Of a stretch of DNA of 64,000 nt, positions 2,909-40,400 are shown piece by piece. Positions within the stretch are counted from its first letter, which is position 1. Every line of letters begins with the position of its first letter. The notes under the pieces were generated by a model. It searched no databases. It was given only the letters and a program-made list of their open reading frames with translations, and was not told where the DNA came from. Origin of the DNA: Vibrio palustris (GTDB taxonomy: Bacteria; Pseudomonadota; Gammaproteobacteria; Enterobacterales; Vibrionaceae). Location: assembly GCF_024346995.1 (NCBI RefSeq), contig NZ_AP024887.1, positions 1,612,001-1,676,000 of the forward strand. Direction: 5' to 3'. Both the position numbers and the translations under genes were made by a program.

Positions 2909-5803
2909 TTATTCACGTGGTGGCGCAGGCGCTAACACTTCACGGTTACCGTTATGTCCAGGAGCGCTGACAATACCTTGGGCTTGTAATTGCTCAATAA
3001 TCCGAGCTGCGCGGTTATAACCAATTTTAAAGCGACGTTGCACGCCAGAGACAGAGCCTCGACGGCTTTGCACAACATGTTCCACCACCTGATCAAAAAG
3101 TGGATCCGTTTCTTCGTCCGTGTCACTTTTCTCACCCGGTAGCATCGCTTCTGGACCTTGGTCACCAGATGTAATTTCTTCAATATAATTTGGCTTACCG
3201 CGTGCTTTCCAGTTATTTACAACCGCATGCACATCTTCATCGGATGCGAAAGCACCATGCACACGCACGGCGTGACTCGAGCCTGCTGGCAAGTAAAGCA
3301 TGTCTCCCATACCGAGCAATGATTCTGCTCCGCCTTGATCCAAGATAGTTCGTGAATCGGTTTTTGTTGATACTGTAAAGGCAACACGAGCTGGAATGTT
3401 GGCTTTAATCAGGCCAGTAATCACATCAACAGATGGGCGCTGCGTAGCCAAGATTAAGTGAATGCCAGCTGCACGTGCTTTTTGAGCAAGACGCGCAATT
3501 AGCTCTTCCACTTTCTTACCCACCACCATCATTAAATCAGCAAACTCATCAACAACCACGACGATAAACGGTAACTTCTCTAGTAGTGGTGCTTCTGCAT
3601 CCATACTGTCACCGGGTTGCCATAAAGGATCATGAATTGGGTGACCCGCATCAGCGGCCATTTTTAGTTTCTGGTTAAAGCCCTTAACATTACGTACGCC
3701 CAAGGCAGACATCAATTTATAACGGCGTTCCATTTCCCCCACACACCAACGCAACGCATTTGAAGCATCTTTCATGTCGGTCACAACTTCAGACAATAAG
3801 TGAGGAATGCCTTCATAAATCGATAGCTCAAGCATTTTCGGGTCAATCATGATAAAGCGTATATCTTCTGGGGTCGCCTTATATAACATACTCAGAATCA
3901 TTACATTGACACCGACTGATTTACCAGAACCTGTCGTACCTGCAACAAGTACGTGAGGCATTTTCGCTAAATCCGCAATCACAGCGTCACCAGCAATATC
4001 CTGTCCGAGCACAACAGCCGTCGGTGATTTAGACTCTTGGAACTCATCACTACTAATGACATCCGAAAGATACACAGTCTGACGCGTAATATTAGGCAGC
4101 TCTAGACCAACATAAGGTTTACCCGGAATCACTTCAACGACTCGCACCGCCATTGCTGACAATGAACGGGCTAAATCCGTGGCCAAATTCGAAATACGAC
4201 TGACTTTCACGCCAGGCGCTAAGTCTAATTCAAAGCGAGTAATGACAGGTCCAGGGAAAATATCGACGACTTTAGCTTTGATTTTATAATCTGCTAATTT
4301 CGATTCGACTAAACGCGCAATGTCTTCCAACGCATCTCTATCGATAAAGTTATCACGCTTTTCAGGATGATAAAGCAGATCGAAGGTCGGCATTGGTTCT
4401 TCAGGTACGGGCAGTTTTTCTTCTTGGTTGACCAAAAATGGGTTTTGTTTGCCGGCCATATTGGCTTGCGCATCTGACACTAAACTTTGGAATGCTTGTA
4501 CATCGTCATCCACACTTTCACCAGCTTGCGACTCATCATCTTCATAATCGTCAACGTCAGGTTCTGCGTTATTTAGAGTTTCGGCGTACGTCGTGACTGG
4601 TTCAGGTTCAGGCTCCGGTTCAGCGGCGACCTCAAACGAGACATCCGATAGTTCCTCTTCAACAGCATCGAAGTTAGAAATCGATGGCTGAGGCTCATCA
4701 TCAGTGGATGAAACATCGATTAACTCTTCCTGTGGACGCCAATACGGCTCATCAAATGTCTCAGCGGCGTAATCATTATGATTACGAGCATCTTCATCTA
4801 ACGATTCAATCGTGGCATCTAATTGATGACTCCGTGAAATGCCTTCTTCTGTCGCATCATCTTCATACTCATTATAGCTCGGCTCCGGAGCACGATACTG
4901 CTGCGCCTGCGGCATATGAATATTAAAACGGCGTTCTACTGGCTCTTCTACCGGCTCAGACACATAATACTCAGGTTCAGGTTCAGATTCAGGCGGTGCT
5001 GAAAATAAAGGATCCCCCTGATCTTCTGAGCGTTTCTCTGGAGCGGTAACCACTTCTTCTGCTTTTGCGCCAGAGTCTACAGAGACATTGTTTGTCGCCA
5101 TCTCTTCATCAGCAATAAATGGCGTATTAAGATCAGGCGTCACTAATTCGTCTTTCTCTTTACGAATACGACTCAACAGCCAATGGAAAGCACGAATACT
5201 CGACTCCCCTAACCCTTCAACAATACGTAGCCAAGAAATCCCCGTCAGAAGCGTAAAACCAGCCCCCCATAGAAATAACATCGCCAAAGTGGTTCCTAAA
5301 ACATTAAGCGTGGGAAGCGATAAACTGGTAATAACATCACCGATGACACCACCAGACGAGAAATACCAGAGATCATCAAAGTTGATATCAGCCAGAGCAC
5401 AGCTGGTCAGGATTAATACCACCACCCCCAACAAACGTGTTCCCCATAAGGTAAAGTCGATTTCTTCATCAGATGAACGTTTACGCAATACCACCCAAGC
5501 ACCCAAAGTGCATAAAAAAGGGATGGTATACGCCAACGAGCCAAATATGAAAAATAGCGTATCCGCCACCCAAGCCCCTAGTAGACCACCTGCATTGTGG
5601 ATATCAGAACCCCATGCAGTCTGCGACCAAGAGGGATCGGCTGGATTAAAGGTAAATAGGGACACAGCCAACAACACCGAAGCCAATACGGCTAAGATGA
5701 GGCCACATTCTTTTAATCGTTCGACACCATTCAAGCGAAAAATCGGCGAGTCATCGCCTGTTTTGATTATGGTTGCCACTTTATTCTTGTGTTCTCTGAA
5801 CAT
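2909..5803 (-). CDS. ftsK: DNA translocase FtsK
   Basis: Septum-anchored DNA pump that clears the chromosome terminus and activates XerCD dimer resolution at dif. Start at MFREHKNK gives 964 aa; the reading frame extends 38 codons further upstream, but the chosen start matches the N-terminus I recall for Vibrio FtsK. Four membrane helices occupy roughly residues 30-190, followed by an acidic, proline- and glutamate-rich linker (about 230-480). The RecA-like motor has Walker [11 protein letters not shown] and Walker [12 protein letters not shown]-terminal gamma winged-helix domain ([19 protein letters not shown]) reads KOPS. lrp lies upstream on the same strand, as in other Vibrio and in E. 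coli. Confidence 0.97.
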
Positions 5804-5871
5804 ACACCAACTTGATATGACTTTTGCCAATATAGGAAATACTATACTTACATGATAGACGTGAAAACAGT

Positions 5872-38269: not shown

Positions 38270-38812
38270 TTAATCGACATCATTAATTTTGGCCGTTAAA
38301 ACATGGTCTTCCCACTGCCCGGCTATTTTTAAATAGCGCTTCGCATAGCCTTCTCGCTCAAAACCTAATTTTTGTAGGACTCGCTCACTCGCACAATTAT
38401 TGGGCATATAATTAGACATAATGCGATGTAGGCCAACTTGCTCAAACATATACTGACTCGTCGCATGCACGATTTCGGTCATATACCCTTGATTGAGATG
38501 TTGGTGGTCCAGCGAATACCCCATTAAGCAGGCTTGAAAAGCACCACGGATAACCCCCGTAAAGTTACAGACGCCAATCACTTGCCGCGAGTTGTTTTTA
38601 TGAAAAGCCACAAAGCGATATTCTTCCCCGAGCTCAAACGCTAATACGTTTTTCTCTGTCACCTGTTGCCAAAATTCTCTCGTATAATAGTCCGGATTTC
38701 TTAGTGGTTCCCACGGGGCTAGGTGTGTTTGATTACGTTGATAATAGTTCAATAGCGCATCGGCATATTGGGGGCGCAATATATCAATCCGAGTATGTGT
38801 GGTCTCTAACAT
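38270..38812 (-). CDS. GNAT acetyltransferase, RimJ/RimL type
   Basis: 180-aa acetyltransferase of the family that acetylates ribosomal-protein N-termini. Visible features are the N-terminal LRPQYADALLNYYQRNQTHLAPWEP, the QVIGVCNFTGVIRGAF strand region, GYMTEIV near the acetyl-CoA site, and NNCASERVLQKLGFEREGYAK. It resembles RimJ/RimL, but the actual substrate cannot be assigned. It lies just downstream of the tRNA-Arg terminator on the same strand. Confidence 0.9.
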   Translation of the reverse strand: MLETTHTRIDILRPQYADALLNYYQRNQTHLAPWEPLRNPDYYTREFWQQVTEKNVLAFELGEEYRFVAFHKNNSRQVIGVCNFTGVIRGAFQACLMGYSLDHQHLNQGYMTEIVHATSQYMFEQVGLHRIMSNYMPNNCASERVLQKLGFEREGYAKRYLKIAGQWEDHVLTAKINDVD

Positions 38813-38860: not shown

Positions 38861-38898
38861 AAAAAAGCCAGTATCTTATACAGATACTGGCTTTTTTT
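38861..38898 (-). terminator. Terminator of the tRNA-Arg gene
   Basis: Long perfect inverted repeat (AAAAAAGCCAGTATCT / AGATACTGGCTTTTTT) with a 5-nt loop and a T run on the minus strand, 5 nt after the CCA end. Confidence 0.95.
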
Positions 38899-38902
38899 AA
38901 AA

Positions 38903-39213
38903 TGGTACTCCGTACAGGATTCGAACCTGTGACCACCCGCTTCATCACACTATAACTTTCGCTACCACCATATAGGCTTTGTGCGCTGGACTATCCCTTT
39001 ACCTTAGCTTTGCAGCTTTAGGTAGACGCCGTCTAGTCTCTACACCTTCTTAGCTTTTGCTAAGCTTGGCTCGGGATTGCCAACAATACTGTAAGGTTTC
39101 CCCGAATTTGACGTCTTACATTCATAAAGTTTCCTCTATGAAGCCCAATTTTTGAAATTTACATTTCTGCCAAATTAGAAGGCGGGTGCTCTATCCAACT
39201 GAGCTAACGGAGC
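38903..39213 (-). tRNA. argU: tRNA-Arg(UCU), split by a group I intron
   Basis: The 5' exon is 39213-39177 (37 nt) and the 3' exon 38942-38903 (40 nt). Joined, they form a 77-nt tRNA: acceptor GCTCCGT / ACGGAGT (first pair G-U), D stem GCTC / GAGC, anticodon stem CCCGC / GCGGG, loop CTTCTAA with anticodon TCT (positions 34-36), T arm ACAGG-TTCGAAT-CCTGT, discriminator A and encoded CCA. It reads AGA, and AGG by wobble. The split lies between anticodon base 36 and A37. In E. coli the equivalent gene (argU) is also beside folD. Whether it is the only copy cannot be seen from this window. Confidence 0.93.
38943..39176 (-). ncRNA. Self-splicing group I intron (IC3-like), 234 nt
   Basis: All core helices can be traced (minus-strand order, plus coordinates). 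The guide UUUGGCAG (39174-39167) pairs with exon CUUCU (P1, U-G at the splice site, one internal U-C mismatch) and with exon AAG (P10). P2 GAAAU/AUUUC spans 39167-39154. A 9-bp hairpin with GAAA loop spans 39142-39121. P3 GACGUC (39115-39110) pairs with GGCGUC (39030-39025). P4 UUCGGG (39106-39101) pairs with CCCGAG (39075-39070). P6a CUUAGC pairs with GCUAAG (39064-39049). P7 GACUA (39038-39034) pairs with UAGUC (38993-38989). P8 UACCU pairs with AGGUA (39024-39000). P9 CGCAC (38985-38981) pairs with GUGUG (38950-38946). The terminal G is 38943. There is no ORF. The layout parallels the cyanobacterial tRNA-Leu intron. Splicing needs only guanosine and Mg2+ in relatives. Confidence 0.92.
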
Positions 39214-39352
39214 ATTGAATTATCAATATTTCAAAGCACTCTCAATTCGATAATTAAGAATATTTTGATAATAACCACTGCTTGTTATAGCAACACTTTT
39301 ACACTGTTTATTTCGCGATTGACTGAATTAAACGATGCGCTACAGGGAGAGG

Positions 39353-39380
39353 ATTATACGAGTTAGTGAGTGTAAATCAA
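39353..39380 (-). promoter_or_regulatory. Sigma-70 promoter of the tRNA-Arg gene
   Basis: Minus strand: TTGATT (39375-39380), 16-bp spacer, TATAAT (39353-39358), then the GC-rich CCTCTCCC discriminator typical of stringently controlled stable-RNA promoters. It predicts a 5' leader of roughly 130 nt before the tRNA, to be removed by processing. Confidence 0.75.
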
Positions 39381-39542
39381 TGAATTTATCGATGAAAACC
39401 GTTCAGGTGCCTAAAAAGTTATCACCAAGGAATTAATTGCTCAAAAACCCTTCTTAGCAAACGTTTGCTTGTGGATGTTAATGTCGTAATCTGCGACAAT
39501 AGCGGCAAAAATTTTCACGTATAATAAGTGTTAAGGAAAGTC

Positions 39543-40400
39543 ATGACTGCCGTAAAAATAGATGGAAAGCATATATCTCAAACTGTGCGCTCTGAAGTAG
39601 CTGAACGTGTGCAAGCACGCCTCGAGAAAGGTTTGCGCGCCCCAGGACTTGCTGTAGTCCTTGTCGGTGAAGATCCAGCATCACATGTGTATGTCGGCAG
39701 CAAACGTCGCGCTTGTGAAGAAGTTGGATTTATCTCAAAATCCTACGATTTGCCCATGACAACGACAGAAAATGACATCATCGCATTAGTTGACCAACTC
39801 AACCAAGATCCAGAAATCGATGGTATTTTAGTGCAGTTACCTCTACCAGATGGCATTGACTCAACCAAAATTTTAGAGCGCATTACGCCCGAGAAAGACG
39901 TAGATGGCTTTCATCCTTACAATGTGGGCCGTTTATGCCAGCGTATACCGAAACTACGCTCATGCACACCCAAGGGCATCATCACGCTTCTTGAGCGTTA
40001 TGACATTTCCTTGATGGGTAAACATGCCGTGATTGTTGGTGCCTCGAATATCGTTGGCCGCCCGATGACATTAGAATTACTACTGGCTGGGTGTACCACC
40101 ACGACTTGTCACCGGTTCACTGAGGATCTCGCTTATCACGTTAAACAAGCCGACATTCTGGTTGTCGCAGTTGGTAAACCCAACTTTATTCCTGGTGAAT
40201 GGGTAAAAGATGGAGCCGTAGTGGTCGATGTTGGCATCAACCGTCTTGAAACCGGTAAACTCATTGGCGATGTGGAATTTAGTGCCGCTCAAGAACGTGC
40301 CAGTTTTATTACTCCAGTGCCTGGTGGTGTTGGTCCAATGACAGTAGCAAGCCTGATTGAAAACACACTGATTGCTTGTGAAACCAATGAAAACCACTAA
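39543..40400 (+). CDS. folD: Bifunctional methylene-THF dehydrogenase/cyclohydrolase FolD
   Basis: Interconverts 5,10-methylene-THF, methenyl-THF and 10-formyl-THF with NADP, feeding purine and fMet synthesis. It has 285 aa from the ATG at 39543, with AAGGAAAG upstream; five extra upstream codons are unlikely. Motifs are [14 protein letters not shown] with the active-site Lys, [21 protein letters not shown], the NADP loop [11 protein letters not shown], and [13 protein letters not shown] near the C-terminus. It is divergent from the tRNA-Arg gene. Confidence 0.98.

Follow-up and report, generated by a model that had tools for sequence, protein, structure and literature searches.

A tRNA-Arg(UCU) gene (argU) of Vibrio palustris, located at positions 38903 to 39213 on the minus strand of the 64,000-nt stretch of DNA analyzed here (the window), is interrupted behind its anticodon by a 234-nt group I intron (Rfam family RF00028). 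In relatives, such introns are found in complete argU copies carried by integrative elements that break the resident argU. We consider it probable that the window gene likewise arrived as a substitute tRNA carried by an integrative element, that it outlasted both this element and the resident gene, and that the intron self-splices. A vehicle for the intron becomes visible in these elements, which break a tRNA gene and deliver an intron-bearing copy, and the notion that an intron may shield a gene against a site-specific recombinase becomes testable.

A group I intron in the anticodon loop

The gene comprises the following features.

39177 to 39213, minus strand: 5' exon of tRNA-Arg(UCU), 37 nt, ending with the last anticodon base (ARAGORN, introns allowed)
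38943 to 39176, minus strand: group I intron, 234 nt, last base G (RF00028, ARAGORN, kept pairs, and precursor fold)
38977 to 39164, minus strand: RF00028 match (catalytic core), 66.3 bits, E value 1.3e-14
38903 to 38942, minus strand: 3' exon with encoded CCA, 40 nt (ARAGORN, introns allowed)

The original prediction had placed a 234-nt group I intron between exons of 37 and 40 nt, and ARAGORN agrees with it. Run without introns, the program calls no tRNA in the whole window; with introns allowed, it reports tRNA-Arg(tct) with a 234-nt intron at 37/38. The joined exons, run alone as the prediction had proposed, give tRNA-Arg(tct) of 77 nt and fold into a clean cloverleaf with CCA and a UCU anticodon. 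The proposed covariance-model search likewise bore the prediction out: the RF00028 match lies above the curated cutoff of 50 bits, spans model positions 1 to 253 (the full model), is the sole match at gathering score within the window, and is the only one reported genome-wide. The sequence supports both the assignment as a group I intron of tRNA-Arg(UCU) and the boundaries first predicted, and we take the intron to be IC3-like.

The precursor RNA has a predicted fold of -99.7 kcal/mol (z score, -4.4), and 0 of 100 shuffled sequences were equally stable. In this fold, CU/AAUUU (slash, splice site) is paired with AAAUUGG, which places a U·G pair on the splice site; UUGGGC at the guide position is kept in all nine aligned introns. 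Judged by eye, the AA of the 3' exon could displace the AA of the intron on the guide, providing an option for P10. Across nine related introns, 21 of the 62 predicted pairs show at least one sequence in which both sides have changed and the pair is kept, a count made on a nested consensus, which by its nature leaves the P3/P7 pseudoknot aside. No open reading frame (ORF) of at least 80 aa that could encode a homing endonuclease is present in the intron, whose 234 nt could hold no more than 77 codons plus a stop.

Group I introns of bacterial tRNA genes are known from Leu-UAA, fMet, Ile-CAU, and Arg-CCU. Like these, the window intron is small, lies in the anticodon loop, has U·G at the 5' site and a terminal G, and matches RF00028. 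Unlike them, it is hosted by tRNA-Arg(UCU), and in relatives the host is the substitute of a mobile element and not a resident gene. The expectation that such an intron would be new or little described in a gammaproteobacterium held in its second half but not in its first, since putative group I introns in tRNA-Arg-TCT have been reported for Thiomargarita Bud S10 and BOGUAY Beggiatoa, also gammaproteobacteria (PMC4853749). The excerpted text of that account describes no integrative element or substitute and leaves the introns without a class. Arg(UCU) introns of gammaproteobacteria are thus already known, while intron-bearing substitute tRNAs of integrative elements were not found in print in the open-licence literature, most subscription papers being outside the scope of the search.

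The window gene as apparent sole source of the AGA-reading tRNA

The V. palustris genome (3.74 Mb in two contigs, scored 100% complete) gave 110 hits to RF00005, every one of which coincides with an ARAGORN gene on the fetched stretches (111 genes in total). None of these 111 ARAGORN genes is tct, and a loop pattern search for UCU pointed to seven extra places, at which ARAGORN called no tRNA. Another intact tRNA-Arg(UCU) gene, named in the original prediction as part of a case against it, was thus looked for genome-wide without being found. Splicing of the window intron should for this reason be essential. AGA accounts for 37 of 16,982 codons and is present in 24 of the 45 window ORFs of at least 150 aa, a count that omits the ORF at 5088 to 5855 as overlapping. 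It is highly improbable that the window gene is dead or poorly spliced and that some other tRNA decodes AGA: besides the failure to find another UCU gene in the genome, the one tRNA-Arg(CCU) gene should decode AGG only, the cloverleaf is clean, and the core pairs are kept. A plain tRNA scan can overlook such a probably essential gene.

Elements that cut tRNA genes and carry a substitute

Three forms of element were found in relatives, in which argU is cut in the T-loop, argU is cut in the D-stem, or tRNA-Ile(CAU) is cut in the T-loop. A cut argU together with an intron-bearing substitute is present in G011, G163, G111, and G083 (T-loop form; G and L numbers are our handles for genomes and loci), in G009, G018, G340, and G108 (D-stem form), and, in other families of the order, in G628 and G442 and, decayed, in G433 and G522. 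The complete substitute argU is located just inside the left end of the element. In the four T-loop genomes, of which G011, G163, and G111 belong to Vibrio, the resident argU ends at GGTTC, the foreign DNA starts with TTAT, a complete intron-bearing argU follows 88 to 140 bp beyond the cut, and the lost 3' part of argU is found ~15 to 31 kb farther along, preceded by the left-end sequence in inverted orientation. The D-stem form is cut between GAGCAC and NACTAACCCC (G009, G018, and G340), and its substitutes contain a different intron, which is located behind U34 and is 51 to 52% identical to that of the window. The third form, found in four genomes, has an intron-bearing tRNA-Ile(CAU) 126 to 127 bp on; we presume the Ile(CAU) identity by comparison with known tRNA sequence, ARAGORN calling these genes Met(cat) or Gln(ctg).

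Two loci outside Vibrio have unusual arrangements. The intron of L136 (G442) is 67% identical to that of the window, versus 52 to 54% to the other class, and is located behind U34, the splice site that the other class uses, with its 3' end partly duplicated; this looks like a site switch. L137 (G433) has three successive argU genes: first a cut copy in decay, then one that bears the intron and is cut in its T-loop, and last an intact one that lacks the intron.

The elements end in inverted repeats, TTATATTAGGTTAAT and ATTAACCTAATATAA in G011 and a left end of the ACTAACCCC type with GGGGTTAGTT at the right in G018, and the lost 3' part of argU was found at the far end of all six elements that were followed. 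Next to the left end, the 6 bp belong to the target (AGGTTC in four of four T-loop elements). At the right end, the adjacent 6 bp differ between elements (AGGTTC, GGGTTC, GAGTTC, and GGGATC) and may derive from a former donor site. An element that breaks a tRNA gene without restoring it would need a substitute.

Tyrosine recombinases are contained in the elements. Behind each of the four T-loop substitutes lie genes for a recombinase of 473 to 481 aa and a protein of 1,114 to 1,126 aa, and three of the four have, in addition, a small gene encoded on the same strand; PF00589 is matched by the recombinases of G111 and G083. When compared with the Gamma-Mobile-Trio models, the D-stem element of G009 scored 44.9 versus 40 for GmtX, 443.3 versus 600 for a GmtZ-like protein, and 294.5 versus 340 for a GmtY-like protein. 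In the T-loop elements of G111 and G083, GmtY scored 32.1 and 42.8 bits versus 340, the other four proteins giving no hit, and the alignment of the large T-loop proteins to the GmtZ-like proteins extends over just 148 columns (hhalign, 74.5%). Among ten cargo proteins of G111 and G163, PADLOC found PD-Lambda-1 in G111; type I restriction, AbiZ-like, and Septu-like proteins in G163; and RecD-like helicases in both.

An ordinary plus a large tyrosine recombinase, a 6-bp footprint, and inverted-repeat ends are features shared with the Gamma-Mobile-Trio islands (NCBIfam names) and with the SE, Tn554, and GInt elements (PMC10214605). Unlike all of these, the elements described here target a tRNA gene and carry a substitute tRNA; the available text of PMC10214605 never mentions tRNA. 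SEs are described there as having a target-derived left and a varying right 6 bp and as leaving no empty site. Tycheposons (PMC10872708) are also tyrosine recombinase elements bordered by a tRNA gene, but their description, as far as excerpted, has no occurrence of "group I intron" and no cut tRNA gene. In IStrons (PMC4227781), a group I intron is likewise partnered with DNA mobility, but intron and transposon are there fused as one unit, as the excerpt presents them, whereas here the intron lies inside a tRNA gene that is carried as cargo.

Traces of a resident argU at the window locus

Around the intron-bearing gene, the window contains the following features.

38861 to 38893, minus strand: terminator-like hairpin GCCAGTATCT-loop-AGATACTGGC plus T run, of the type that follows the substitutes carried by elements in G011, G163, and G111
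39214 to 39338, minus strand: 125-bp stretch in the apparent place of the start of the resident argU, of which at most two bases (GC) are left (compared with intact loci)
39339 to 39368, minus strand: promoter stretch of the lost resident argU, with TATAAT at 39358 to 39353
39528 to 40400, plus strand: folD, the argU neighbor (NF008058, 513.8 bits; cutoff, 355)

folD was matched at 31 of 31 Vibrio argU loci tested, two of them intron-bearing; at 29 intron-less Vibrio loci, argU is immediately downstream of the promoter stretch. The old promoter stretch of the window shares 24 to 27 of its 30 bases, in ungapped comparison, with the stretch preceding argU in 14 of the 29 intron-less relatives, while the 30 bases that directly precede the intron gene average just 8.2 matches to the relatives' promoters. 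A consensus promoter scan of the stretch gave 1 promoter-like site versus 2.2 expected by chance and is uninformative alone. At most two bases of the resident argU follow the promoter stretch, and the intron gene starts 125 bp on. Behind it, the hairpin pattern (loop of 3 to 20) was found, among 224 sequences, only at the window's own locus and at the loci of G011, G163, and G111, although a consensus terminator scan did not flag the hairpin; the acetyltransferase gene that follows (38270 to 38812) stands behind argU in no relative tested. The window intron is 79 to 82% identical to the introns of G011, G163, G111, and G083.

The folD neighbor, the old promoter stretch, the missing resident gene, the element-type terminator, and the intron identity lead us to read the window copy as element derived, and the gene is most likely a substitute that outlived its element. 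Counting against such an origin, the window retains no element, and no element end was recognized there: T-loop ends are absent at up to two mismatches, the only argU halves present are the gene's own, and no recombinase is evident by eye in the list of neighboring ORFs. A search of the V. palustris genome for the large recombinase-like protein, run without a positive control, gave no match. The exons are also similar to argU at its native place in G022 (97% over bases 1 to 39 and 93% over bases 272 to 311), and the window gene could therefore have arrived through simple recombination with another Vibrio. The window has ten short stretches that match the D-stem end over 11 bases with two mismatches; these were taken as chance. 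G182 possibly holds a second substitute left after element loss.

The course of events that we propose would begin with an element recombining into the resident argU and breaking it. The element would itself supply a full-length argU, positioned just within its left end, with the intron riding in that substitute. In the window, the element and the resident argU would afterwards have been lost and the substitute retained. To yield a tRNA, an intron in the anticodon loop would have to self-splice, and the gene is presumably spliced in the cell.

How often substitutes carry the intron

Searching 227 Vibrio genomes with RF00028 gave 17 matches in 13 genomes, 13 of them in tRNA genes (12 genomes); RF00028 scans covering more than 40 genomes were run with stricter filters. 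Three end patterns that are blind to introns, run over the same 227 genomes, found 4, 3, and 4 cut genes, and 10 of these 11 have an intron-bearing substitute. The lone exception, G295, has the same sequence as L186 of Vibrio owensii. G108, G628, and G442 were found via their introns and stand outside this count. The remaining three Vibrio tRNA introns are those of the window, G226, and G272. In G226 and G272, the intron is located in an argU at its native place, the exons resembling those of substitutes, which suggests conversion of the resident gene. When G226 is compared with the intron-less G032, 1 kb upstream is 86% identical, the 60 bp downstream 70%, and 600 bp downstream 65%.

The T-loop pattern, run over named Proteobacteria genomes, found 21 cut argU genes, 18 of which have a tRNA-Arg(UCU) substitute within 900 bp. 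Only 4 of the 18 substitutes contain an intron (Enterovibrio norvegicus, Vibrio renipiscarius, Shewanella sp. strain SG41-4, and Alishewanella aestuarii) and 14 do not; the intron is therefore not required by the layout. Two of the 21 loci also belong to the Vibrio count (L177 = G111 and L186 = G295). L172 and L176 have no substitute in the DNA examined (409 bp only in L176), and in L184 an intact tRNA-Arg(UCU) lies 1.8 kb further on. A recombinase of the studied kind was detected by tblastn in 13 of the 21 loci and was unmatched in L173, L176, L178, L180, L181, L184, L189, and L192, some of which are short. The T-loop-cut argU genes (L172 to L192) are spread over alpha-, beta-, and gammaproteobacteria, their substitutes being mostly intron-less; Duganella (L182) and Polaromonas (L184) have another type of tRNA-Arg there.

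The cassette is not tied to one element. G083 and G163 have introns that are 96% identical and identical exons, while their recombinases are 32% identical and the element ends differ. Among the recombinases compared, the nearest to that of G083 (63%) belongs to V. owensii, whose substitute is intron-less. Judged from these identities, the cassette moves between elements, one cassette being present in two element types. A phage or plasmid vehicle was also considered and rejected: the T-loop pattern found 0 stretches in viral_contigs, blastn with the intron gave 6 plasmid and 12 phage records, none above 80% coverage, and no Escherichia coli match, and the G111 recombinase had no match among plasmids at 1e-20.

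These distributions bear on whether the intron could be an ancient, vertically inherited inhabitant of argU in this lineage, independent of mobile elements. The native-place introns of G226 and G272 would fit such a history, as would the 25 of 25 class-level loci tested in which no cut copy lies upstream of the intron-bearing tRNA, although that test was ungapped and can miss copies, as it did the cut Ile gene of G167, which was found by end pattern. We nevertheless regard vertical inheritance as quite unlikely, because tRNA introns occur in only 12 of the 227 Vibrio genomes, 10 of the 13 are in substitutes beside a cut gene, the window argU is displaced from the old promoter stretch, and the same cassette is present in unlike elements. 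Entry by way of an element remains our preferred reading, with the intron acting mainly as a passenger whose spread may be due to elements and to the conversion of resident genes.

Instead of a passenger, the intron might, in the three Vibrio settings, be kept since it splits the recombinase target within the substitute, so that the element's own or a rival recombinase is blocked at the DNA while RNA splicing restores the tRNA; Vibrio elements would then have arrived at such a mask in each of the three settings separately. An unmasked substitute, often nearly identical to the target, would be cut by either recombinase, and 10 of the 11 Vibrio substitutes found by end patterns, in three settings, do carry the intron. 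By our count, the intron is separated from the 6-bp crossover by 7 bp in D-stem elements and by 14 bp in T-loop elements, and the end repeats of SEs span 13 to 19 bp in the excerpted account (PMC10214605). Compared over at most 57 bases each, argU substitutes with an intron mismatch the cut target at 12, 2, 4, 8, 3, and 1 positions and intron-less ones at 6, 13, 12, 9, 20, 10, 39, 6, 13, 14, 13, 10, 14, and 6 (P = 0.008), a test that is blind to kinship, the intron-bearing cases all being gammaproteobacterial. One Ile(CAU) substitute equals its target over 56 nt, but the other three of the four differ at 15, 6, and 12 of 56 positions, the 15 and 12 being inflated by a one-base length difference. 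The 14 intron-less substitutes of the Proteobacteria survey speak against masking, as does G433, in which the intron-bearing argU was itself cut and the next copy has no intron. As a general rule, masking is weakened by these cases; for Vibrio, we hold it to be possible but doubtful, and the passenger reading is retained.

Other tRNA introns

One RF00028 survey gave 70 matches, and the results rest on the 30 with loci. L067, L073, L130, L132 to L134, L140, L158, L165, L169, and L171 have no tRNA call and were dropped, and L141 was also left out; L132 to L134 (G272) and L067 (G208) are RF00028 matches for which ARAGORN called no tRNA. By eye, L144, L146, L149, and L152 (G866, G1017, G806, and G924) contain group I introns in tRNA-Thr(UGU), although ARAGORN names these genes Asp, His, His, and Ser, respectively. 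L155 (G699) reads as an intron-bearing tRNA-Lys(CUU). In G079, which also has an intron in argU (L074), a tRNA-Leu intron (L065) seemingly lies, by eye, at an unusual site between positions 32 and 33.
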